Source: an uncultured Flavobacteriaceae bacterium (GTDB lineage: Bacteria; Bacteroidota; Bacteroidia; Flavobacteriales; Flavobacteriaceae). Taken from it: 64,000 bases of DNA. The notes below the pieces were generated by a model. That model was not told the DNA's origin. It searched no databases and saw only the letters and a program-made list of their open reading frames with translations. Positions 6,339 to 24,624 of the stretch are shown piece by piece. The position numbers and the translations under genes are program-made. The stretch is from contig CANLVG010000007.1 in the NCBI GenBank assembly GCA_947494565.1, positions 62,001 to 126,000 of the forward strand, in the 5' to 3' direction. Within the stretch, counting starts at the first letter, position 1. Each line of letters opens with the position of its first letter.

Positions 6339-6983
6339 ATGCGAACTTCAAACCGAAATTATACTATCGAATATAGTGGTGCGATTGCTGGGATCCTATC
6401 TATTGTGCTCTATATTGCTTCAGCGGCCTTTTCATTCTTGCCCGATGCAGTAAGCAGGCTATTTGCATTTGCATTCCCATTGCTATGGATCATGTCTTTT
6501 ATGGGCCTTTATAGGTTTCTGTCTGAAGACTATTTGGGTGCCTCCTTGCAAACTGCTTTTTTGTTCGGAGTCATAGGTGGTGCTATAGCATGCACCTTTT
6601 TAGTGATTCAACAAGGCAATTTGGTGTGGTATGAACAAGTAATGCAGGGTACTTTATCCGAAGAGGCAAAGCAGTTGAATAAAGCCATACTATTAGGGGT
6701 TGACAAAGTTCAGACGTATATGGATATCGTATTTGATATATTTATCAGCATCGCTTGGATTTTATTCGGTCTAAATATTGCCCGGAGTCCAAGCTTTAGT
6801 CGTATTCTCGGATATCTTGGAAGCCTAATTGCTTTAGGGCTGCTGGTATTTAATCTGTATACGTTTCCGTTTCCACCGGCAGATTCCGGTCTATTGGATC
6901 TTGGCCCTTTCTTCGGCTTATGGGCACTGGTATTTTACGTGTTGTTTTTTCTCAAAGTAAAAGCGAAGCGGCAGCATCAATAA
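6339..6983 (+). CDS. hypothetical multi-pass membrane protein, DUF4386-like
   Basis: ATG at 6339 is preferred over an upstream TTG; it gives a 214-residue protein with about six membrane segments. The pattern of two N-terminal helices, a loop around YEQVMQGTLSEEAKQLNKAI, then four helices and a basic tail (KVKAKRQHQ) resembles the poorly characterised DUF4386 group. No catalytic motif is visible and the function is not known. It is about 130 bp downstream of the LytTR gene on the same strand and could be its target or partner. Confidence 0.6.
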   Translation: MRTSNRNYTIEYSGAIAGILSIVLYIASAAFSFLPDAVSRLFAFAFPLLWIMSFMGLYRFLSEDYLGASLQTAFLFGVIGGAIACTFLVIQQGNLVWYEQVMQGTLSEEAKQLNKAILLGVDKVQTYMDIVFDIFISIAWILFGLNIARSPSFSRILGYLGSLIALGLLVFNLYTFPFPPADSGLLDLGPFFGLWALVFYVLFFLKVKAKRQHQ

Positions 6984-7470
6984 TTAGCCGCTTTAACGAC
7001 CTTTCTAAAATAACTAAACCTATCCTTCATCTTTAGACCAAGTTCAGTTCACTATTAATTGAAGCGTAACACGAAACTGATTTGGAAAGTTTAAGACAAG
7101 ATTTAGGTCGAGGACTTTGATTTACCTGCAAAAAGACAGGCTTTGGTAAACTTCGAGGCGTGCGGCATGAAACTTCGTTTCGTTCGCTTTTGTTTTATAC
7201 TATAAATTTATGGTAAGCAAACCTGTCCCGTAATAGGTTTATTAATGAGACTACTAAAAAAGGCCAAGAAAGGTGGGCTTTTAGCCATGGTCCGCTGCCG
7301 TGTAAAATTAGGATTGTGAAACGGTCGTTTTAAGGGACTGCTATTTTTGTGCTTCCAATCACTTAAAAATAGGCTGAACCATCTTCATAGGTTGTATAAG
7401 CCACATATATGTTTTATCCGCTATATTTGGTATAAAGCATAGTTGAATTTAATTTTTAGCATCAAAACCC
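6984..7470. other. intergenic with one copy of an interspersed repeat
   Basis: No supported gene. Positions about 7316-7390 resemble 33690-33770: shared blocks are CGTTTTRARGGACYGCTATTTTT and CTGAACCATC. Both copies end upstream of a gene in the identical TATATTTGGTATA (7422-7434 here), which contains a TAnnTTTG -7 box. It may be the promoter region of the M20 hydrolase built from a dispersed element. Confidence 0.5.
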
Positions 7471-8916
7471 ATGAAAATAATACTTAAAATACTCATCATT
7501 TTTTTACCTGCAGTGGTTTCAGCCCAACAACGATCTTCAATCAAGGAACAAGTGTTGGCTGAAGTGGTAGGTCTCGAGGAACAGATAAACAAGGTAAGCC
7601 AGTTCTTGTGGGATTACTCAGAAGTCGCGTTGAAAGAGCATAAATCTGCTGATCTTCTTATTGAAATATTAGAAAAGGAAGGGTTTAATATAGAAAAAAG
7701 TGTGGCAGGTATGCCTACAGCTTTTGTGGCTACCTACGGAACCGGTGATCCTGTAATAGGCATACTTGCTGAATACGATGCGTTACCAGGAATAGGAAAC
7801 GCTCCTCTACCCTATAAAGCACCGCGTGAAGACGGACTTACCAGTGGCCAGGGTTGTGGCCATAACTTGTTTGGTTCAGCAAGTGTAAATGCAGCCATCG
7901 CAACAAAACGGGTTATGCGCAAAAACAATATGAAAGGGACGATAAAGCTTTTCGGAACTCCTGCCGAAGAAACAGTAACAGGTAAAGTTTACATGGCTAA
8001 AGATGGGATATTCGACAACCTTGATGCAGTTCTTGAATGGCATCCTCATAACCAAACAGGTGCAGGTTTTTCAGGCTTTTATAGTAGTCTGGCTATGAAC
8101 AATTTTGAAGTGGAATTTTTTGGACAATCAGCTCATGGAGCAGTAGATCCATGGAATGGGAGAAGTGCGTTGGATGCTGTAGAAATGATGAATTATGGAG
8201 TGAATCTAATGAGAGAACATATATACCCGACCACAAGAATTCACTATGTGATTCCAAATGCGGGGGAAGCACCAAATGTAGTCCCAGAGTATGCCAAGGT
8301 TTGGTATTATGTAAGAGACACAAGCCGCAGCAATGTTGAGAAATATTATCAACGAATATTAAATATAGCTGAAGGATCTGCCTTGGCTACAAGTACCACC
8401 TACAAGGTTAAACTAAATACTGGGGTCCATGCCTATAATTTAAATGGTCCAATCTTAAATAGATTGCAAGAGAACATAGAGTATGTTGGTGCTCCAGTTT
8501 TTACCGATGAAGAACAAGAATGGGGTAAAAAATTGCAAGAGGCTACTCTAATCGATCAAAAAGGTTTTGCTACTGATGTTGTACCTATTTCCGAAAATTG
8601 GGAAAAATTACCACCAGGGGGAGGGTCAACAGATGTTGCAGAAGTAAGTTTTCTTGCACCAACGGCTGGTTTTTTTGTAGCCACCGCGCCGATTGGAGTG
8701 CCTTGGCATAGCTGGGCAAGTAGTGCCAGTCATGGTTCATCAGCTGGTTTTAGGGGAACCCAAACTGCCACCAAAATTCTCTCCTTAACGGCCATAGATC
8801 TCCTTACTGATAAAAAATTACGTGATGAAGCAAAAGCTTATTTTGATAAAAAGACAGGAGGAAAAGCCTATAAATCACCTATACCCAAAGATCAAAAAGT
8901 AACATTACCAAAATAA
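7471..8916 (+). CDS. secreted M20-family amidohydrolase, AbgB-like
   Basis: 481 residues with an N-terminal signal peptide (MKIILKILIIFLPAVVSAQ), so periplasmic. It belongs to the M20 zinc peptidase/amidohydrolase family and is closest in layout to aminobenzoyl-glutamate utilisation protein B. Evidence is LAEYDALPGIGNAPLPYK, the metal-site GQGCGHNLFG, the EE pair in GTPAEETVTGK, LEWHPHNQTG, the dimerisation domain at about residues 210-330, and the late WHSWASSASHG. It would hydrolyse an amide of an N-acyl amino acid or peptide; the substrate cannot be read from sequence. A terminator follows at 9001. Confidence 0.87.
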   Translation: MKIILKILIIFLPAVVSAQQRSSIKEQVLAEVVGLEEQINKVSQFLWDYSEVALKEHKSADLLIEILEKEGFNIEKSVAGMPTAFVATYGTGDPVIGILAEYDALPGIGNAPLPYKAPREDGLTSGQGCGHNLFGSASVNAAIATKRVMRKNNMKGTIKLFGTPAEETVTGKVYMAKDGIFDNLDAVLEWHPHNQTGAGFSGFYSSLAMNNFEVEFFGQSAHGAVDPWNGRSALDAVEMMNYGVNLMREHIYPTTRIHYVIPNAGEAPNVVPEYAKVWYYVRDTSRSNVEKYYQRILNIAEGSALATSTTYKVKLNTGVHAYNLNGPILNRLQENIEYVGAPVFTDEEQEWGKKLQEATLIDQKGFATDVVPISENWEKLPPGGGSTDVAEVSFLAPTAGFFVATAPIGVPWHSWASSASHGSSAGFRGTQTATKILSLTAIDLLTDKKLRDEAKAYFDKKTGGKAYKSPIPKDQKVTLPK

Positions 8917-13677: not shown

Positions 13678-13771
13678 CACTCGGCGATTGCCCATTCCCG
13701 ATTCTTTCCTAAATTCGAGAAAGTTTGGAAGGGTCCCTCAAAAAAATAAAACCAAACACAGATGCTATCCG

Positions 13772-14650
13772 ATGGTATTTAAGTTGACGTTAAACCTTAT
13801 CGTATTCCTATCGTGTCTTTTCGTGCTTCAATCTGGCAGTCCTGAATATGATAAATTAGCTGACGACCAAAAGAATACAAACCAAAAATTAGATTCAAGG
13901 AGAAATGCATATCGTGATAGTTTAAAGATCTCCTATATCGGTAATATGGGGGTATTGATAGGTTGTGATGATCGGCACATTCTCATTGATGCGCTACACA
14001 AAAAGTATAAACCAGACTATGTATTTCCTTCCAAAGGCACTGTGCAAAAATTGATAAATGGAGATTCAGGTATTGACATTGCTCTAGTAACGCATCATCA
14101 TAAAGACCATTTTGATGCAGTGTTGGTCAGTGACTATTTGAAGGAAAATGATAGATCAATCGTGCTAGGTTCTCCGCAAGTGACAGAAGCAATTGCCCCA
14201 AATTCCAAGGAGATATCATTTTCGAATAGAATAAAGGAAATCGCCTATGATGGGGAAATGCATACGATACTACATGATGAAATAGAAATACGAGCCTTCA
14301 AATGCCCTCATGTAAATGCTACACGACACCGTTCAGTTCAAAATATTGCCTACATCATTAAAATCAAGGGGTATTCGGTATTGCATGTCGGGGATACCAA
14401 TTGGGATACCGCTAGATCAAGTTTTAAAGCTCAAAATGTAATCGATGAAAAATTTGATGCCGTGGTACTTCCGTATTGGATGCTACTCGATAAAAGTTCA
14501 CAAAAGGAAGTTTTAGAATCCTTGACAACAAAACAAATCATAGCAACGCATATTCCTCCATTTCTTGACGACGCAGAGAAGAAAGCTCTATTGGCCAATC
14601 ATGCCAATATCGTTTTATTTGACGTTCTAGGTAAGCAAATTACGCTCTGA
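13772..14650 (+). CDS. MBL-fold metallo-hydrolase, exported
   Basis: ATG at 13772 gives a 292-residue protein with a hydrophobic leader (LTLNLIVFLSCLFVLQSG). The metallo-beta-lactamase fold is clear: LVTHHHKDHFD (HxHxDH), CPHVNATRH, LHVGDTNWD and the late ATHIPP. It resembles the UlaG-like/RomA-like branch that hydrolyses phosphodiester or lactone bonds, but the substrate is not readable. An earlier in-frame start at 13688 would add a non-signal extension and is less likely. Confidence 0.75.
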   Translation: MVFKLTLNLIVFLSCLFVLQSGSPEYDKLADDQKNTNQKLDSRRNAYRDSLKISYIGNMGVLIGCDDRHILIDALHKKYKPDYVFPSKGTVQKLINGDSGIDIALVTHHHKDHFDAVLVSDYLKENDRSIVLGSPQVTEAIAPNSKEISFSNRIKEIAYDGEMHTILHDEIEIRAFKCPHVNATRHRSVQNIAYIIKIKGYSVLHVGDTNWDTARSSFKAQNVIDEKFDAVVLPYWMLLDKSSQKEVLESLTTKQIIATHIPPFLDDAEKKALLANHANIVLFDVLGKQITL

Positions 14651-15034: not shown

Positions 15035-16882
15035 ATGTCCGAAATTCAAACCAAGCTTCCGGCATTTCTGAAAAAAGTCCCCTTCTTTTCCGAAGTTTCC
15101 AAGACTTCGTTGATTACGTTATGCGAACATATTGAATTGCATGATTTTTATAAGAATGATCCTATTGTTGTCAAGGGTGATGTCGGTGATGCCATGTATG
15201 TCATTCTTGAGGGAGAAGTGAAAGTACATGAAAATCAGTACGATTTCGGTACCTTAAGAAAGGAAGAGTGCTTTGGAGAATACGCACTTATCGATGACGA
15301 TAGGCGGTCCGCTTCCGTGACGGCCCTCAGGGAAACCCAGGTTGCAAAGATAGATAGGGTGCACTTTCTCGATCTGATGAAAGGTGATCAGGGGTTTTCC
15401 CAGGGAATACTCTCAGTGATGATCAAACGTCATCGTGAATTGGATGCCACCCAAGAACAATTGGCGAATTCCAAAAAATTAGTGGAACAGGCAAACGGTA
15501 AAATGAGCGGACTCATCAATGGCGCTATGGACGCCATTATCATGTTCGATTCCAGGTTTCGCATCATCTTGACAAATCCTTCTGCGGATACGATACTACA
15601 AAATGATGATACACTTCAGCGCAACATACTTTTTTTCTTTGATGAAGCTAGTGCCGAACTCATTGAAGCTCTCGTAAAATCGGGACTCGAAGGCGATGAA
15701 AAAGCCATCAACAACTACTTGCCGAATATTGTTAAGGTCATCGGTTCAGATGAAAAGGAGACCTTGAACGAAGGTACGATCAGTAGATATGGTGAAGGTG
15801 ATGAAACATATTATACGCTAATTCTAAGGAATATCGACGAACGCCTCGCAGCTCAAGACACCATTAGTCTTTTGACCAATCAGACCGAATATTTGGCCGA
15901 GGAAATACAGGAATTGACCAGCAGCTACGGAATTATCGCAGAAGATTCAGGTATGGTCGACGTACTCAATTCGATTGAACAAGTCGCGCAGACTGACGCC
16001 ACGGTCTTGATTAACGGAGAAACCGGTACAGGTAAGGAATTGGTCGCCAGGGCGATTCATCAAGCTAGTCCTAGAAATGATAAACCACTTATTCGAATAA
16101 ATTGTGGTGCCATTCCGGCGAACTTGATCGAGAGCGAATTGTTCGGCCATGAGAAAGGAGCCTTTACAGGAGCTACGGCAAGTCGCAGAGGGCGCTTTTT
16201 ATTGGCTGATAAAGGAACCATCTTTTTAGATGAGATCGGTGAAATGCCTTTAGACTTACAACCTAAATTGTTACGCATTATTCAAGAAGGGGAATTCGAC
16301 CCGGTTGGAAGTTCGGAAACCATAAAAGTAGATGTTCGGATTATCGCGGCAACACATCGAGACCTGTTGCGCTTCTCCAAGGAAGGAAAGTTTCGAGAAG
16401 ACCTCTATTATCGTCTAAACGTTTTTCCTATTGTGGTTCCACCATTACGGGAAAGGGGTGATGACATCTACTTGATCGCTCAGGAAATCATGGGCCAATT
16501 TTCTGCCAAATTGAATAAAAATGTAAAACCTCTGACGGAGGCGGACAAAGCGTTGCTATCACGCTACAATTGGCCGGGTAACGTTAGGGAACTTCAAAAC
16601 ATTATTGAGCGAGCAGTAATCATAGCGAAAGATAGAAACATCGACTGGAACACTTTGATTCCCAAATCTTCCGAAGATGGTGCTATGCAGGTTGAATCAA
16701 AAACGGAAAAAATCTACTCCGCCGAGGAAATGATCAAACTCGAACGCGAGAACATTCTTCGCGCGCTCAGGAAGACCAAGTGGAAAATATCGGGAAGAAA
16801 TGGGGCGGCGGCCATTCTCCAATTAAAGCCCACGACGCTTACTTCCAAGATCAAGGCCTTGAACATCGAAAGGCCGATATAA
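15035..16882 (+). CDS. sigma-54-dependent activator with cyclic-nucleotide-binding and PAS domains
   Basis: 615 residues. Domains: cNMP-binding beta-roll (about 15-130) with the phosphate-binding cassette [16 protein letters not shown], keeping Glu and Arg; a PAS-like domain (about 155-270, [17 protein letters not shown]); AAA+ sigma-54 interaction domain (about 305-535) with Walker [15 protein letters not shown], Walker [10 protein letters not shown] and the R-finger region [14 protein letters not shown]; Fis-type HTH at the end ([20 protein letters not shown]). It should bind upstream sites and open a sigma-54 promoter in response to a cyclic nucleotide and/or a PAS ligand. The next gene has exactly such sites upstream. 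Confidence 0.92.
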
Positions 16883-17060: not shown

Positions 17061-17118
17061 AATATCTTGAAAGCAATTTTTATTATTTAATGAACTGATA
17101 ATCAATAGTTTGAATGGT

Positions 17119-17134
17119 TTGGCACGAGGATGGT
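17119..17134 (+). promoter_or_regulatory. sigma-54-like -24/-12 promoter of osmC
   Basis: TTGGCACG AGGA TGGT. The -24 half matches the consensus TTGGCACG at all eight positions. The -12 half TTGC is matched at two of four positions, in the correct spacing. It is about 47 bp before the osmC ATG. Confidence 0.55.
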
Positions 17135-17180
17135 AATAGACCTGGCAGCAATAATGCTAAACAATTTAAATTTTATTAAA

Positions 17181-17732
17181 ATGATTACAACAGCAAACAT
17201 TAAAAACGGAGTAAACGTAGACCAATTAGTAGAAACCATTGGTGCAGTTCAAGGAAATCCTGAATTGGCGAAATTCGAGTTCAGAACAAAAAACAATTGG
17301 ATCGAAGGCGGTCATTGTGTATCGAGTATGAAGAGCTTTTACGGTGTGGGTCAGGAAGACACTACACGTAAAGAGACCTTTACCATGGAGTGTGATCACC
17401 CGAACGTTTTGTTAGGAGAAGACAAGGCCGCTACACCTGCAGAAGTGGTGTTGCACGCTTTGGGTTCTTGTTTGACAGGTGCAATGGTGTACCATGCCGC
17501 TGCAAACGGAATCGAAATCGAAGGCGCTGAATCTTCTCTAAAGGGAGGATGTGATTTGCACGGTTTCCTTGGTTTGGACCCTGAGGTGCGAAAAGGTTTT
17601 GACGGTATCACGGTTCGCTTAAAAGTGAAATCGGATGCTTCTGAGGAGCAATTGCTAAACTTGGCGAAGTTTTCCCCGGTTTTTGATATCATTTCAAACC
17701 CTACTCCGGTTGCTATCGAAATCGTAAAGTAA
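17181..17732 (+). CDS. OsmC family protein
   Basis: 183 residues from ATG 17181; an upstream in-frame start at 17130 would overlap the promoter. OsmC/Ohr fold, normally a thiol-dependent peroxidase. The conserved Cys in HALGSCLTGAMVYHA is present, and MECDHP and the GGCDLHGFLG loop supply further Cys. The usual second catalytic Cys (CPV box) is Ser here (AKFSPVFDIISNPTPV), as in a known OsmC branch of unclear activity. Classical Cys-Cys peroxide reduction is therefore not assured. Its upstream region suggests sigma-54 control by the adjacent activator. A strong terminator follows. Confidence 0.85.
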   Translation: MITTANIKNGVNVDQLVETIGAVQGNPELAKFEFRTKNNWIEGGHCVSSMKSFYGVGQEDTTRKETFTMECDHPNVLLGEDKAATPAEVVLHALGSCLTGAMVYHAAANGIEIEGAESSLKGGCDLHGFLGLDPEVRKGFDGITVRLKVKSDASEEQLLNLAKFSPVFDIISNPTPVAIEIVK

Positions 17733-17816: not shown

Positions 17817-20800
17817 ATGAATCCTCATAAGCATAGCATAATTACGGGAAACGAGGCCGCCGCGACAATCGCTTATAAAACCAATGAGGTCTGCGCCATT
17901 TATCCTATAACACCATCTTCTGAAATGTCGGAACTGGTAGCGGAGTGGAGTGCGACCCAACAAAAAAACATTCTCGGTTCTATCCCCACTGTTTTTGAAA
18001 TGCAAAGTGAGGCCGGAGTCGCCGGCGCGTTACATGGCGCCCTGCAAACAGGATCTTTGGCAACCACATTTACAGCCTCTCAAGGGCTTTTGTTGATGAT
18101 ACCCAATATGTACAAGATTGCCGGTGAGCTTACACCTAATGTCATTCACGTGGCGACGCGTTCTGTTGCTACCCACGCCTTATCCGTTTTTGGAGACCAT
18201 AGCGATATCATGGCGGCGCGCAGTACCGGTTACGCTTTTCTTGGTGGCGCATCGGTACAGGAAGCGCTCGATTTTGCTTTGATTGCCCAGGCGGCGACCT
18301 TGGAATCGCGTATTCCTTTTGTGCATTTTTTTGACGGATTTAGAACTTCTCATGAAACGGCAAAAATCGAATGCATCTCTGATGCTAGTCTTCGCGAAAT
18401 GATGGATCAAGATTTGATCATCGAACACCGAAATCGAGGACTGAACCCGAATGCGCCGGTCTTGCGTGGAACATCTCAAGGTCCTGATGTATTCTTTCAG
18501 GGTCGCGAAGCAGTGAATTCCTATTATAATGCTTGTCCGGATATCGTTCAAAATCAAATGGACAAGTTTGCAAAATTGACCGGCCGACACTACCGACTAT
18601 TCGACTACGTCGGTCACCCAGAAGCGGAACAAGTGATCATTGCCATGGGTTCCGCCACGGAAACTATTCAAGAAACCGTAGAGCATCTCAATGCCAACGG
18701 AGAAAAAGTCGGACTGATCAAAGTCCGTTTGTTTCGGCCTTTTAGTACAAAACATCTATTGGAGGCATTGCCTAAAACATGTAAATCGATAGCCGTTTTG
18801 GATCGCACCAAAGAACCGGGTAGTGCCGGTGAACCGCTATATCTGGATGTCGTACAATCGCTAATGTCAGTAACGGATACCTACGCCACACTTCCTAAAA
18901 TAGTGGGTGGCCGTTATGGACTTTCTTCCAAAGAGTTGAACCCCAGTATGGTCAAGGCCTTGGTCGATCATTTAAAACAAGAACATCCGAAACACAGTTT
19001 CACGATGGGAATAAACGATGATGTGACCCATCTGAGTATACCCTATACTGATGACATTCAGCTACAGGGTGAAAACTTTCAGGCGTTGTTTTATGAAACC
19101 AAATCGGAAGCTTCATGTACCAGTTTCAATGCACTACTGCAAATCATCGGAGCGGAAAAGCAGATCCAGGGCTATACAGAAATCGATTATAAAAAATCGG
19201 TATCTCGTAGTGTGTCCCATCTACGGATGGCTGATTCGCCCATCAAAGCACCTTATTTGATTTCGAATGCTGATTTCGTTGGATGTGATTCCGTAGGGTT
19301 TTTGGAAAAAGATACGGTCTTGAAACGCCTAAAGGACAATGGAGTATTGTTGATACATACTGCTTTGAACACTACGGAATTTTGGAAGGGTATATCCTTG
19401 GAAAAGCGGAAAGAAATTCAAGATAGAAACATTTCATTGCACTGTATCGATTTGAATACCATCAGCAAAAACTGCGTTTTGGGCGCTAGTAAAGTGTCAG
19501 GTTTTCATACTTGTGTTCTACCATTGAACGGTGATTTGTGTGATGAAAAAACAGCTGCGCAATTACAAGACTATATTTTAAAGGTCGATACGTCATGTAA
19601 TTTCAGTACGGAACAAGCATCGAATTTTGATGTCGAATTTGCCGATTCCTTTTTGGGAAGATTGATGGAGGGAAGAGGGGAAGAGCTTCCTGTGGGGGTA
19701 TTTCCCGTTGATGGAACTTACGAAACGGATACGGCGAAATTCAATAATCGAAATTCGTGGGATGCCCTTCCGGAATGGGATGCCGATTTGTGTACGCAAT
19801 GTGGCGCATGCAGTATGGCATGCCCGCAAGGGGCCATTCGCATGAAAGTGTATGACGATTCTTATGTACAGCAGGCTCCTGAGGGATTTCGATCGGTCAA
19901 GTGGATTGAGGAAGATGGGCAAAGCGATTTGTTGAATTATACGATACAGGTAAACCCTGAGCAATGTACGAGCTGTAACAATTGTCTGGATGCCTGTCCG
20001 GCAAAAGCGTTAACGCTTCAAGACAAGGGTTTAAAGTTCAAGAAGGCGCAAGAAAACTGGACGCATTTTGATAGCATTCCGGAATTTGATAGAACCAAAT
20101 TAAATACGACCAAAGTAAGTCAGCAGCAGCTGCAAGAACCGCTGTTCAAATATTCGATCGGTGTTGATGGATGTGGCGAAGCGCCTTACTTAAAGCTGAT
20201 TTCCCAATTATTCGGCGATCGAATGTTAGTTGCAAACGCTACTGGTGCCAGTTCCATTTTCGGCGGGGCACTCCCAACAACGCCCTGGGCAAAAAATGAC
20301 AAGGGCAGGGGGCCGGCTTGGTCGAATTCCCTTTTCGAAGACAATGCGGAATTCGGTTTGGGGTATCGACTGTCTTTAGACCAACAAGCACAGCAAGCAC
20401 GAATGTTGTTGCAAAGCTTAGTGTCCGATTTTGATTTGGCACATGATATTTTGACGGCGGAGCAAAACACCGAAAGACAAATTCAAGAACAACGAAAACG
20501 AGTAGAACAGTTAAAGGCCCACTTAACCACTGTCGCCAAGACTGAAGCGCAACAACTTTTGGGTATTGCCGACAGTCTGGTGAAGCAGAGTGTATGGATC
20601 GTGGGAGGCGACGGTTGGGCCTACGATATAGGTTATGGCGGATTGGATCATGTGGCGGCGTCCGGGAAGAATGTAAACATTTTGGTATTGGATAACGAAG
20701 TCTATTCGAATACCGGCGGACAAATGTCAAAAGCCACCCCCTATGGGGCTTCCGCTAAATTCGCTACCAACGGAAAGCAACGGCAAAAGAAAGACCTGGG

Positions 20801-21236
20801 GCGTTTGATGCTGTCGTATGATGCTATCTATGTCGCTCAAATTGCGATAGGAGCTGATCAAGAACAGACGTTAAAAGCGATTCAAGAAGCAGAAAGTTTT
20901 GACGGGCCATCGATTATCATTGCCTACTGTCATAGTCCTGCTCATGGGATCGACATGAAAAATCCGAGCCAGTACCACAAAGCGGCTGTTGCTTCCGGAC
21001 AGTGGTTGTTGTATCGAAATGATCCTAGAAGAATAGCGAATCCTTTTCAATTGGATTCAAAAGCTCCCGATATTCCTATTCAGGAGTATTTAAAACTCGA
21101 GGGGCGATTTGCAAAAATGGTCAAAGAAAATGGGGCATTGTTGGAGTCCAAAATAGCGTCTATTCAAAAGAGTATCGATAAAAAATATGAACTGTTCGCG
21201 ACAATGGCTTCACAAGAAGAAGCTGCCTTGGTCTAA
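17817..21236 (+). CDS. pyruvate:ferredoxin oxidoreductase-like protein lacking proximal-cluster cysteines
   Basis: 1139 residues, single-chain PFOR layout. Domain I has YPITPSS and RSVATHALSVFGDHSD, holding the substrate Thr and Arg. The TPP domain has GDGWAYDIGYGG and DNEVYSNTGGQ. Two ferredoxin clusters are complete: CTQCGACSMAC from residue 659 and CTSCNNCLDAC from residue 717. The ligands of the proximal cluster are mostly missing: the normal ACAGCGETPY reads GVDGCGEAPY (Val783, Cys786), ATGCSS reads ATGASS (Ala811), and the late Cys is Ser1040 (AYCHSPAHG), with a Cys two residues earlier. Electron flow from TPP must differ from standard PFOR, or the enzyme does another 2-oxoacid reaction. 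Annotation pipelines would call it nifJ. Confidence 0.88.
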   Translation: MNPHKHSIITGNEAAATIAYKTNEVCAIYPITPSSEMSELVAEWSATQQKNILGSIPTVFEMQSEAGVAGALHGALQTGSLATTFTASQGLLLMIPNMYKIAGELTPNVIHVATRSVATHALSVFGDHSDIMAARSTGYAFLGGASVQEALDFALIAQAATLESRIPFVHFFDGFRTSHETAKIECISDASLREMMDQDLIIEHRNRGLNPNAPVLRGTSQGPDVFFQGREAVNSYYNACPDIVQNQMDKFAKLTGRHYRLFDYVGHPEAEQVIIAMGSATETIQETVEHLNANGEKVGLIKVRLFRPFSTKHLLEALPKTCKSIAVLDRTKEPGSAGEPLYLDVVQSLMSVTDTYATLPKIVGGRYGLSSKELNPSMVKALVDHLKQEHPKHSFTMGINDDVTHLSIPYTDDIQLQGENFQALFYETKSEASCTSFNALLQIIGAEKQIQGYTEIDYKKSVSRSVSHLRMADSPIKAPYLISNADFVGCDSVGFLEKDTVLKRLKDNGVLLIHTALNTTEFWKGISLEKRKEIQDRNISLHCIDLNTISKNCVLGASKVSGFHTCVLPLNGDLCDEKTAAQLQDYILKVDTSCNFSTEQASNFDVEFADSFLGRLMEGRGEELPVGVFPVDGTYETDTAKFNNRNSWDALPEWDADLCTQCGACSMACPQGAIRMKVYDDSYVQQAPEGFRSVKWIEEDGQSDLLNYTIQVNPEQCTSCNNCLDACPAKALTLQDKGLKFKKAQENWTHFDSIPEFDRTKLNTTKVSQQQLQEPLFKYSIGVDGCGEAPYLKLISQLFGDRMLVANATGASSIFGGALPTTPWAKNDKGRGPAWSNSLFEDNAEFGLGYRLSLDQQAQQARMLLQSLVSDFDLAHDILTAEQNTERQIQEQRKRVEQLKAHLTTVAKTEAQQLLGIADSLVKQSVWIVGGDGWAYDIGYGGLDHVAASGKNVNILVLDNEVYSNTGGQMSKATPYGASAKFATNGKQRQKKDLGRLMLSYDAIYVAQIAIGADQEQTLKAIQEAESFDGPSIIIAYCHSPAHGIDMKNPSQYHKAAVASGQWLLYRNDPRRIANPFQLDSKAPDIPIQEYLKLEGRFAKMVKENGALLESKIASIQKSIDKKYELFATMASQEEAALV

Positions 21237-21240
21237 AACC

Positions 21241-24200
21241 TTATTTCTCATGCATGGTGTTTACGATTTCCCAATCTTTCGGAACTCCTGAAACTATATA
21301 CTCGGCAGCCTTGGTCATAAAATATTTCGAGACCTTGTCTTTTGGGTTTTTGGTCAGCACCTTATCAAAAATTGCGGAAGCTTTCGGAAATTGATTGTTG
21401 AAATAGTAGTGCAATCCTTTTTCAAACTCCTTTAGAGTTTTTCTCTTGAGTTTGACCACCTCAGGGTCATCCCCATCAAAGCATTCGTAAATACCGATAA
21501 TGTTGTCTTTTCCTTTGACCTGTACTTTCCCCAAATACCTAAAATGATAATCCCCCTTGTTCTTAATAGTTGCAAGACTATCTTCACTGATAATAATATT
21601 CGCACCATAATGTTTGGTCACACCCTCCATTCGCGAAGCAGTGTTCACGGTATCGGCTATGATGGCTGTGTCGTTTCTACTTTCATCACCGATGATACCC
21701 ATTACCAAAGGCCCGGTATGGAGGCCCATTCCTACCGAAATAGGAACATTGCCATCACTGATTCGTCTCATATTATATTCTTGAAGGGATTGTTGCATGT
21801 CGATACTTGCCTGTAGCGCATGCTCCGCTTCATGCGGGAAAAGTGCCATAATACCATCCCCCAAATATTGATTGACAAAACCTTTGTTGTTTTGAATTAC
21901 GGGTCCCATTTTACCCACATAAGAATTAACGAATTTAAAATTCTGTTTCGGAGTCATGCCTTCCGCAAGGGTGGTATATTCGCGAATATCGGTAAAAACT
22001 ACGGTCACGTCCTTTTCAACATGATCGCCCAATAGTACATCTGTAATGGTTTCCCTTCCGACGGACTTTATGAATTCCGTAGGGACAAATTTACTTGTGG
22101 CCTTATGAATTCCATTCATATCTAAATGGGCTTTGAGCCGCGCCAACAGTTCATTTTTTGAAAAAGGTTTGGTCAGGTAATCGTTTGCCCCAACATTGAA
22201 ACCGGCTACCAGATCTCGTACCCGATTTTTTGCCGTGAGCAATACGATAGGCAGCTCACTGGAAACGTATTTTTTTCGAATCTCTTCGCAAACCTCATAA
22301 CCCGACATGCCGGGCATCATGACATCCAATAGAACGATACTGAAATCTTCTCCCTTTTCTATGATTTTGAGCGCTTCATCCCCGTTTTTAGCACTGATCG
22401 TACTATAACCACCAATGGCCAAATGGTTTTCAAGCACACGCCGATTGATGGGTTCATCATCGACGATAAGAACCTTGGCGAGGCCTTTTTGCTTTTGTAC
22501 AGAGACATCGGATGATGTTGTACTTTCATCGGTTTCTACACGTAATTGGGGAATTTCCTCATGTTCTAGAATTTCCCCCAGCAACATATCTTTGCGTGTT
22601 TTATCACTTATGGGAAGTGTAAACGTAAACATCGAACCTTTACTAACTTCCGAATCAACTTGAATGGTTCCCCCATGAAGCGCTATCAACTGCTTTGTTA
22701 CCGAGAGTCCGAGTCCGGTCCCGCCATATTCACGTTGTGTAGAACCATCGCCCTGCTCAAAGGATTTAAAAATGTCTTGAAATTTATCTTTTGGTATGCC
22801 GATCCCGGTATCGGAAACAGAAATCGAGAGCATTTTGTCTTTTTCGCTGGCTGTGATTTCGACGGTACCTTTTTCGGTAAATTTAATCGCATTGCCAACG
22901 AGATTATGTAAAATCTGTTGGACACGATTTTCGTCCGCTTCAACCAAGGCAATTTCCTTGGGTACGGTGTTGAGAAGCTTCAGGTTCATGCCTTCTATCA
23001 AGGGCTGCGAGAGCTTCAGTACAACGTCTGCAATCGAATGTATATCCACCGGTCGTGTAGCGAGCTCCAAATCGTGGTTTCTCAATTTCGAAAAATCCAA
23101 AATATCATTGACCAAATGGGATAAACGTTTACCACTATTGGTTATCATATCTAGATTTTCAATGGCTTTTAAGGGCAAGTTTCCTGCAACTCCGTCTTTT
23201 AAGGATTCCGAAAGTCCGATAATACCACTCAAAGGAGTGCGGAGTTCATGGGAGGTATTGGCGAGGAATTGATCTTTAAGTGCATCGACTTGTTTTAAGC
23301 GGGCGACAAGATTTCTTTCTTGCTCTAATTTCTTGTTTTTCTGCTTGTTTTTCCAATAAAAACCACCAAAAAGTAAAAGGGCAAAACTTCCGAACAAAGC
23401 TAAATAGAGGGTAGTGCGTTGTTTACTGAGGTTCTTTTCAAACAATAACTCTTGCTCAGCTTTTTGTTTGGTAAATGCGATACTGTCGGATAACTGTTGC
23501 TTATCGAATTGGTATTGCATTTCTTGCCTGGTAATCTCCTGTATTTTCTCTTGGTTTATCAATGAATCCTGAGTGGTAGTGGCAAGCTTAAAATACTCCA
23601 GTGATTTTTGCATATCCCTTAACCCTTCCCAAGCGCTGCTCAAGCACTCGTATGATTCCTTTTGAACGAGTAGGGCTCCTGTTTTTTTTGATAGTTCAAG
23701 TGCTTTCTCGGCATCCTTGATTGCCAATCGAAAGTCTTTTTGCGCTAAGAAAGTTTTTGCCCTGTAACTGTAGACGGCCGGTAGCCCCTCGCTATCGCCT
23801 ATTTCTTCTTTGATTTGGACACTTTTGTTAAGGTAATCCAACGCTTTTGCGTATTCCCCTTGTTGGCTATAGGCCCCTCCTATATTACTATATGCCCTAC
23901 TAAAAGACTTTTTATCATTTACCTCTTCCGCTATTTGTGCACTTTTTAATAAGTTTTCTAAGGCGAGTTCATGGTTTTTTAGATTCGTATAGATAAGTCC
24001 AATATTGTTATAGGATGCCGGCAAAGCTCTTTTGTTCCCTAATTCCTTCTTTATTTTTAAGCTATATTGGTAATATTCCAATGCTTTTTCATTTTTCCTT
24101 TGATCAGAGTATACATTGCCCAAATTATTGGTGACCCGTGCAAGCCCTGGTTTATCATTTAGTTCTTCAGAAATTTTCAGACCGGCCAATAGATTTTCCA

Positions 24201-24624
24201 ATGCTTGGGTATAGTTTCCGAGCTCGTAGTAAATAGTTCCTATATTACTGTAGGATGTGGCGGTGGCTTTCCGGTCCTCCAACAGTATATTTATTTCGTG
24301 GGTTTGTTGAAAGTATTTTAAGGCCTTCCTGAATTCTCCTGCCACTGCATAGGCTCTCCCAATAAGATTTAAGGAGGTAGCTTTCCAATCCTGGTTTTTT
24401 TGCTCCAAGGAGAACTCTAGTAGTTGTTGCCCGGTGGCCCTTGCAGTATCAAGGTTCTGCCTAAATTGAAGTAAATACAGATCAAGTCCTGCTTTGAAAC
24501 GAATGGAATCGATTTGGGTAGGGCTTTCCCAAACCAGTTTTAAGCTATCTATTTTGTCGGTTTGGGCGTTCACGAACTGGCACGTCAAAATAACCCAAAG
24601 AAATGTGAGTAGTACTTTTTTCAT
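21241..24624 (-). CDS. TPR / histidine kinase / receiver / class III nucleotide cyclase sensor
   Basis: 1127 residues. Signal peptide (FLWVILTCQFVNAQ); about seven periplasmic TPR repeats (60-350); one membrane helix (about 405-425, LALFGSFALLLFGGFYW); HisKA with His near 459 (SHELRTPLSG); HATPase (NLVGNAIKFTEKG, DTGIGIP, GTGLGLS); receiver with Asp near 765 (LLDVMMPGMSG); class III cyclase with metal Asp in FTDIREYT and YLGDGIM and transition-state Asn/Arg in VNTASRME; a short C-terminal tail. The purine-selecting Lys (usually VDKF) is Gln here (VNQYLGD), so ATP versus GTP is open. It ends 4 bp from the convergent PFOR gene. The nearest cNMP receptor is the sigma-54 activator 4.4 kb away. 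Confidence 0.9.
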   Translation of the reverse strand: MKKVLLTFLWVILTCQFVNAQTDKIDSLKLVWESPTQIDSIRFKAGLDLYLLQFRQNLDTARATGQQLLEFSLEQKNQDWKATSLNLIGRAYAVAGEFRKALKYFQQTHEINILLEDRKATATSYSNIGTIYYELGNYTQALENLLAGLKISEELNDKPGLARVTNNLGNVYSDQRKNEKALEYYQYSLKIKKELGNKRALPASYNNIGLIYTNLKNHELALENLLKSAQIAEEVNDKKSFSRAYSNIGGAYSQQGEYAKALDYLNKSVQIKEEIGDSEGLPAVYSYRAKTFLAQKDFRLAIKDAEKALELSKKTGALLVQKESYECLSSAWEGLRDMQKSLEYFKLATTTQDSLINQEKIQEITRQEMQYQFDKQQLSDSIAFTKQKAEQELLFEKNLSKQRTTLYLALFGSFALLLFGGFYWKNKQKNKKLEQERNLVARLKQVDALKDQFLANTSHELRTPLSGIIGLSESLKDGVAGNLPLKAIENLDMITNSGKRLSHLVNDILDFSKLRNHDLELATRPVDIHSIADVVLKLSQPLIEGMNLKLLNTVPKEIALVEADENRVQQILHNLVGNAIKFTEKGTVEITASEKDKMLSISVSDTGIGIPKDKFQDIFKSFEQGDGSTQREYGGTGLGLSVTKQLIALHGGTIQVDSEVSKGSMFTFTLPISDKTRKDMLLGEILEHEEIPQLRVETDESTTSSDVSVQKQKGLAKVLIVDDEPINRRVLENHLAIGGYSTISAKNGDEALKIIEKGEDFSIVLLDVMMPGMSGYEVCEEIRKKYVSSELPIVLLTAKNRVRDLVAGFNVGANDYLTKPFSKNELLARLKAHLDMNGIHKATSKFVPTEFIKSVGRETITDVLLGDHVEKDVTVVFTDIREYTTLAEGMTPKQNFKFVNSYVGKMGPVIQNNKGFVNQYLGDGIMALFPHEAEHALQASIDMQQSLQEYNMRRISDGNVPISVGMGLHTGPLVMGIIGDESRNDTAIIADTVNTASRMEGVTKHYGANIIISEDSLATIKNKGDYHFRYLGKVQVKGKDNIIGIYECFDGDDPEVVKLKRKTLKEFEKGLHYYFNNQFPKASAIFDKVLTKNPKDKVSKYFMTKAAEYIVSGVPKDWEIVNTMHEK

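Follow-up and report, generated by a model that had tools for sequence, protein, structure and literature searches.

A Flavobacteriaceae subfamily of single-chain pyruvate:ferredoxin oxidoreductase homologues lacking three proximal-cluster cysteines and the predicted coenzyme A P-loop

The DNA stretch analysed here (the window) comprises 64,000 nucleotides from an uncultured Flavobacteriaceae bacterium (assembly GCA_947494565.1, contig CANLVG010000007.1, positions 62,001 to 126,000). On its forward strand, at 17817-21236, it carries a gene for a single-chain homologue of pyruvate:ferredoxin oxidoreductase (PFOR) that lacks three of the four cysteines of the proximal iron-sulfur cluster as well as the P-loop for coenzyme A (CoA), as judged from the open reading frame (ORF), profile matches, alignment, and tree. 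The subfamily of single-chain PFOR homologues typified by this gene is named PFOR* below. The window gene starts with ATG and encodes 1139 amino acids. Its product scores 1404.5 bits against TIGR02176, pyruvate:ferredoxin (flavodoxin) oxidoreductase, which is above the curated cut-off of 911.35 bits. The domains POR_N, PFOR_II, POR, EKR, Fer4, and TPP_enzyme_C follow one another along the chain, and the nearest PDB sequences are the PFOR chains of Moorella and Desulfovibrio. This is the only protein of the source genome with a POR_N match (E ≤ 0.001).

Homologues were sought in 295 genomes of the class, 395 of the order, 397 of the family, and 247 of the phylum, and also in contigs of named genomes, where the best 80 of 592 relatives were taken and records near the window were possibly left out. 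In total, 172 distinct long proteins were aligned, and a tree was constructed with FastTree. Proteins with all four proximal cysteines formed the canonical group (131 and 133 proteins in two comparisons), from which L010, L016, L132, and L134 were excluded.

In the alignment, the four proximal ligand positions of the window protein are occupied by V783, C786, A811, and S1040. C786 is the only ligand kept, while C1038 lies two residues off the fourth position. This agrees with the first-pass annotation of the gene, which had reported exactly these losses and the stray cysteine. The former CxxC pair V783 ... C786 is encoded at 20163..20174, the former third ligand A811 (ATGCSS changed to ATGASS) at 20247..20249, and the segment from C1038 to the former fourth ligand S1040 at 20928..20936, all on the plus strand. 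The same pattern runs through the subfamily. Cysteine occurs at positions 783 and 811 in none of 37 PFOR* proteins and at 1040 in none of 36, while C786 is present in all 37; one protein (L176) ends at a contig edge, hence the smaller number for late positions. Residue 783 is V in 31 members, E in 2, D in 2, I in 1, and S in 1 (n=37); residue 811 is A in 32 and S in 5 (n=37); residue 1040 is S in 36/36; and residue 1038 is C in 29, S in 6, and T in 1 (n=36). Among the 172 aligned proteins, 131 possess all four cysteines and 37, including that of the window, are without three of them. One more, L134, is a degenerate relative of these 37. L010, L016, and L132 have the first three, with no residue aligned at the fourth. 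Long enough frames were obtained for 79 of the best 80 named-contig loci, and all 79 encode four cysteines. The four-cysteine site of single-chain PFORs is thus missing from PFOR*.

The first-pass annotation had named an alignment with other cysteines at all four ligand positions as the finding that would count against it. All cysteines of the window protein were checked in the alignment, and none occupies a lost ligand position; a take-over of the ligand roles by other cysteines was accordingly rejected. A C786-C1038 disulfide was rejected as a universal replacement because residue 1038 is Ser or Thr in 7/36 proteins. Sequencing error or decay was also rejected, since 37 genomes share the losses and the substitution ratios given below are low. 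Clade-wide changes surround the old cluster site: E778K (35 K, 2 R), T789A (35/37), Y815F (35/37), and N818A (34/37). An acidic residue is found at position 784 in 28/37 members, and A114T, beside the substrate residue R115, in 37/37. Cys240 is invariant in the clade (37/37) and occurs in 20/131 canonical PFORs, which makes it a candidate clade-specific thiol.

A second loss, absent from the first-pass annotation, affects domain III. The canonical stretch GLGADGTVGANKNSIKIIG (GxGxDGTVGANKN) is replaced in the PFOR* clade by variable residues. In the window, alignment and conservation place this degenerate stretch, residues 427-439, at 19095..19133 (+). In the Moorella enzyme, a P-loop of domain III binds CoA, according to PMC8091585, which cites the structure, and we infer that the stretch lost in PFOR* is this CoA P-loop, a feature of single-chain PFOR that PFOR* would then lack. 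Conservation was compared by domain, with borders placed after the Desulfovibrio africanus scheme (as given in a figure legend of PMC8945911). Columns conserved at ≥90% make up 7% of domain III in the clade versus 30% in the canonical group. The corresponding values are 54 versus 38% for domain I, 43 versus 28% for domain II, 23 versus 24% for domains IV/V, and 45 versus 33% for domain VI. Since diversity is much greater in the canonical group than in the clade, the drop in domain III is all the more striking. Domain III of PFOR* has lost most of its constraint, so that the earlier description of an otherwise well-conserved enzyme was wrong.

The catalytic residues and the ligands of the two accessory clusters are retained, as had been annotated. 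Residues assigned to binding of thiamine pyrophosphate (TPP) and the 2-oxoacid are all in place: T32, E65, and R115 in 37/37 proteins, and D932 and N965 in 36/36. The substrate carboxylate residues Thr32 (17910..17912, +) and Arg115 (18159..18161, +; just after the clade-invariant Thr114) were located by alignment; we take them to be equivalent to Thr31 and Arg114 of D. africanus. The TPP/Mg motif GDG (residues 931-933) is encoded at 20607..20615 (+; alignment), and T960 is changed to Asn in 36/36 clade members. In an archaeal relative, the Mg site consists of GDG plus Asn, as described in PMC5020499. All eight cysteines of domain V are present in 37/37 proteins, namely 659, 662, 665, and 669 (19791..19823, +) and 717, 720, 723, and 727 (19965..19997, +), which by these ligand residues corresponds to two clusters of ferredoxin type. 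The substitutions H671Q and D716Q, each found in 36/37 proteins, adjoin ligands of both accessory clusters.

At least 37 PFOR* proteins, that of the window included, were found, all of them in Flavobacteriaceae and distributed over at least 37 of the 397 family genomes. This is a lower bound: 101 of the 397 genomes gave a match with an E-value of at most 1e-150, and not every one of them was read. The 37 proteins and L134 form one clade with a support of 1.0 and a stem length of 0.67 (FastTree). The neighbouring group, with a support of 0.80 only, is made up of other canonical PFORs. Outside Flavobacteriaceae, no PFOR* was seen in the genomes of the class (295), order (395), and phylum (247); only fetched matches were read there, the others being assessed from their score and from how the match broke up (in the phylum set, among matches at E 1e-220 or better). 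The ratio of nonsynonymous to synonymous substitution rates (dN/dS; Nei-Gojobori counts) was 0.033/0.27 and 0.035/0.35, about 0.1, for the two closest pairs and 0.172/1.83, also about 0.1, for the whole window protein versus L141. For domain III alone, the latter comparison gave 0.365/1.44. The low ratios in close pairs show that the PFOR* genes are not decaying; they are under purifying selection. L134 (locus L170) is a shorter, degenerate relative with a frame of 1037 amino acids, and its genome encodes a canonical PFOR as well. L134 keeps the eight domain V cysteines and the five catalytic residues checked, and the genes for an OsmC-like protein and an activator are adjacent. Judged from its sequences, PFOR* is almost certainly a distinct PFOR-derived subfamily of the Flavobacteriaceae, marked by loss of the proximal ligands and of the CoA P-loop.

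The genomic context of PFOR* was surveyed in 24 long clade neighbourhoods (the window and 23 fetched loci, among them L170 with its degenerate gene). The controls were 20 canonical loci from the same family and 63 canonical loci from named genomes, the latter of ≥12 kb. A gene for a sigma-54 activator with a cyclic-nucleotide-binding (cNMP) domain was present in 21 of the 24 clade neighbourhoods, a class III cyclase gene in 23, and an OsmC gene in 24. None of the three occurred at the control loci, with a bare sigma-54 domain match found once in each control group. The activator is missing from three clade loci, of which L205 starts at a contig edge.

An OsmC-like gene precedes PFOR* in the same orientation at 37/37 loci; canonical loci have none (0/83). 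In the window it occupies 17181..17732 (+; ORF, profile, and alignment) when counted from the start shared by the clade; the longest ORF begins at 17130. The gap to PFOR* measures 72-282 bases in 36 loci and 888 in L176. The window protein belongs to the OsmC family, with 41.2 bits against PF02566 (cut-off 27.5). Its 36 counterparts share 76-95% identity with it, while identities to the window PFOR* are lower (52-74%). Orthologues of the partner (≥77% identity) were found in 16 of 149 family genomes, and all 16 carry PFOR*; a seventeenth of these 149 genomes has only a relative of 44% identity. Cys63 and Cys114 (numbered from 17130) are invariant in 37/37 partners. Cys114 is presumably the first active-site cysteine of the OsmC family, and we take the second classical position, before Pro, to be the Ser of the SPVFD motif. 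This motif runs across the clade (SPVLD in one member), and the two-cysteine centre of OsmC/Ohr peroxidases is therefore absent. The position of Cys63 is occupied by Asn in the paralogue L200 (alignment), in L201 and L202 (by eye), and in the solved relative 2opl.

Domain matches identified the activator of the window as a 615-residue protein with a cNMP-binding domain, encoded at 15035..16882 (+). An element of the sigma-54 -24/-12 promoter type, detected by motif scan, precedes the OsmC gene at 17118..17135 (+). In 36/37 loci, an element of the form TTTGGCAYR-N4-wTGCw, with sigma-54 spacing, is found 58-73 bases ahead of the start of OsmC; shuffles of the same stretches gave a mean of 0.1 and a maximum of 2. 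The -12 part is GC in 29/36 elements, and in the window copy it is GT. The element came from a later, looser -24 scan; before it, a strict sigma-54 pattern had given 0 hits in the window, and a motif scan of the region preceding OsmC had given 2/37. The source genome contains rpoN, so that, apart from the GT of the window, a GG-N10-GC element, an activator, and rpoN are all present by sequence. The string KGAFTGA was observed in 19/23 neighbourhoods. In the search for a wider sigma-54 regulon, a strict pattern, which missed the window's own site, yielded 3 sites in the own genome versus 1 in the control (L227 read). A link to nosZ and denitrification was rejected: nosZ scored above the cut-off in 8/16 PFOR*-bearing and 60/133 other genomes, a count that assumes the same 149 genomes as used for the OsmC orthologues. 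As a genomic association, the operon with its control circuit is held with high confidence. The first-pass suggestion of an undescribed PFOR branch gains substance from the 37 proteins in one fully supported clade on a long stem, the purifying selection, and an operon and promoter element of its own; no description of this branch was found in the open-access literature, as far as titles and abstract openings tell.

The cyclase gene of the window (21241..24624, -; domain matches) is convergent with PFOR* and encodes one protein that fuses tetratricopeptide (TPR) repeats, a histidine kinase, a receiver, and the class III nucleotide cyclase. Other cyclase architectures near PFOR* include a cyclase-TPR protein (L169) and proteins with membrane-like segments recognized by eye (L212, L216). 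At L221, a gene for a fusion of a 2Fe-2S ferredoxin, a class III cyclase, and a globin (6414-7748, -) immediately follows PFOR* in the same orientation; L165 covers less of the same region. Similar genes of 494 residues, pyridoxal-type decarboxylase-like by eye, occur in 2/24 neighbourhoods (L168:5018-6502, -; L220:12189-13673, -). Upstream of the activator gene, the window also encodes a protein of the metallo-beta-lactamase fold (PF13483) with an N-terminal hydrophobic stretch (13688-14650, +).

With the CoA P-loop and the proximal cluster lost, the classical PFOR reaction is not expected. Two defining features fail, so that filing PFOR* as a functional PFOR is not justified. Since these losses coexist with selection and a conserved operon, PFOR* probably carries out a different reaction. 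We tentatively propose that PFOR* may be a TPP enzyme acting as a non-oxidative 2-oxoacid decarboxylase or carboligase, without CoA or the classical electron exit; this reading is plausible, and we hold it with reserve. Among the options of the first-pass annotation, we favour an absent cluster or a non-redox activity of the decarboxylase or ligase-like kind. PFOR* would bind a 2-oxoacid on TPP and decarboxylate it, but the transfer of two electrons through a proximal cluster and the formation of acyl-CoA would both be closed to it. The most likely fate of the active aldehyde would therefore be release in aldehyde form or ligation with a second carbonyl compound. The two remaining clusters may be structural or regulatory, or may belong to an electron path that is slower or separate. 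The OsmC-like partner with its clade-specific cysteine may act together with PFOR*, perhaps as a thiol acceptor or by dealing with a reactive product, and cyclic-nucleotide signalling through the sigma-54 activator would switch the operon. A direct precedent comes from the archaeal StOFOR1, whose cluster was studied by mutating its cysteine ligands (Yan et al., 2014, as cited in PMC5020499). According to that source, the cluster is needed for oxidative decarboxylation, while neither the cluster nor CoA is needed for non-oxidative decarboxylation of pyruvate to acetaldehyde.

Several points weigh against this proposal. The main one is that the eight accessory cysteines are kept throughout the clade and even in the degenerate L134; a purely non-redox enzyme would need none of them unless the clusters are structural. 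In an archaeal POR, acetaldehyde formation is reported to depend on CoA, whose part there seems to be structural (PMC4058850). The concerted changes H671Q and D716Q look like retuning rather than decay. An AlphaFold model of PFOR*, built with 50 of the 80 named relatives as input, reached a mean predicted local distance difference test score (pLDDT) of 77.4 and a predicted template modelling score (pTM) of 0.79, and it matches the PFOR fold (Foldseek E 1e-102 to 6cin). However, pLDDT fell below 50 at residues 116-132, 811-818, and 964-974, and global superposition on 6cin gave a TM score of 0.47 and a root-mean-square deviation of 30.9 Å. Given this low confidence at the site and the poor superposition, the model is silent on the cavity, empty or filled.

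The same retained cysteines are the reason why a new electron route, also suggested in the first-pass annotation, may still operate. PFOR* could be a CoA-independent oxidase that oxidizes a 2-oxoacid and frees the acid, with electrons passing from TPP to the medial cluster, directly or via a new cofactor in the vacated site, and on through the two clusters to ferredoxin, flavodoxin, or another acceptor. We consider this possible, though rather unlikely. The invariance of the eight cysteines and the two second-shell substitutions would fit it, and oxalate oxidoreductase offers a CoA-independent relative (PMC5020499). In the known enzymes described there, however, the proximal cluster stands between TPP and the medial cluster, and the StOFOR1 cluster was reported as required for oxidation. 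Moreover, the clade shows no invariant set of alternative ligands, as the acid at 784 (28/37) and C1038 (29/36) illustrate.

Two further schemes give the partner protein a larger part. In the broader one, an unlikely arrangement of two proteins, a dedicated OsmC thiol protein would receive the active aldehyde or the electrons from the stripped PFOR, the retained clusters would form a separate low-potential electron port, and control would be exerted by cyclic nucleotides and sigma-54. In the narrower one, the OsmC-like partner would stand in for CoA and take up the TPP-bound active aldehyde on a disulfide or thiol (Cys63/Cys114), much as lipoyl-E2 takes the active aldehyde from E1. The constant upstream position of the OsmC gene, the restriction of its orthologues to PFOR* carriers (16/16, of 149 genomes), and the invariance of Cys63, replaced by Asn in three paralogues and 2opl, are consistent with such a transfer. 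It leaves the accessory clusters unexplained, however, and we regard it as distinctly unlikely. More doubtful still is a role as a sensor or scaffold, in which PFOR* would sense a 2-oxoacid or redox state, signal into the cyclase/sigma-54 circuit, and turn over little substrate or none. Class III cyclases of several architectures, including the ferredoxin-cyclase-globin fusion, do lie nearby in 23/24 neighbourhoods, but the catalytic residues are invariant, and an activator gene and promoter element upstream fit control of the operon rather than control by it. That PFOR* is a non-functional remnant, as the relaxed domain III (dN/dS 0.365/1.44, window versus L141) and the further degenerate L134 might suggest, is extremely improbable. 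At the level of the clade, the whole-protein dN/dS of about 0.1 in close pairs contradicts it, and the 37 open frames (L176 being cut by the contig end), the conserved operon, and the promoter element also speak against it.

In the common picture of PFOR, a textbook enzyme, the three clusters and the CoA site form one unit. By keeping the ligands of the outer clusters and dropping the TPP-adjacent cluster and the CoA loop, PFOR* breaks this unit apart. The lineage thus offers a natural test of the role of each PFOR part and may carry a laboratory mutant result over to an evolved enzyme. In practical terms, a Flavobacteriaceae gene bearing the annotation pyruvate:ferredoxin oxidoreductase calls for a check before its product is taken to form acetyl-CoA. 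Also, the strict link between the OsmC and PFOR* genes may give that OsmC subgroup a first function.

Among known systems, the OsmC family (PF02566) shares its fold with the partner, with 2opl as the only PDB match, but differs in that the partner has the extra invariant Cys63 and Ser at the second cysteine position. Oxalate oxidoreductase of Moorella does not require CoA; unlike PFOR*, it has three [4Fe-4S] clusters, the proximal one included, and separate subunits (PMC5020499), while the proximal ligands are absent from PFOR*. Single-chain PFOR (TIGR02176; D. africanus, M. thermoacetica) agrees with PFOR* in length, domain order, TPP and substrate residues, and the eight domain V cysteines, and the PFOR structure 6cin shares 43% identity with it (Foldseek alignment). 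PFOR* differs from single-chain PFOR by the absence of three of the four proximal ligands and of the CoA P-loop, and by its OsmC partner gene and sigma-54/cNMP gene context. The cluster-cysteine mutants of StOFOR1 from Sulfolobus tokodaii (Yan et al., 2014, as cited in PMC5020499) resemble PFOR* in that the cluster next to TPP is gone and the TPP site is kept; unlike PFOR*, they are laboratory mutants of a two-subunit enzyme without a ferredoxin domain of its own. By this analogy, the PFOR* clade looks like a natural, long-lived version of these mutants.

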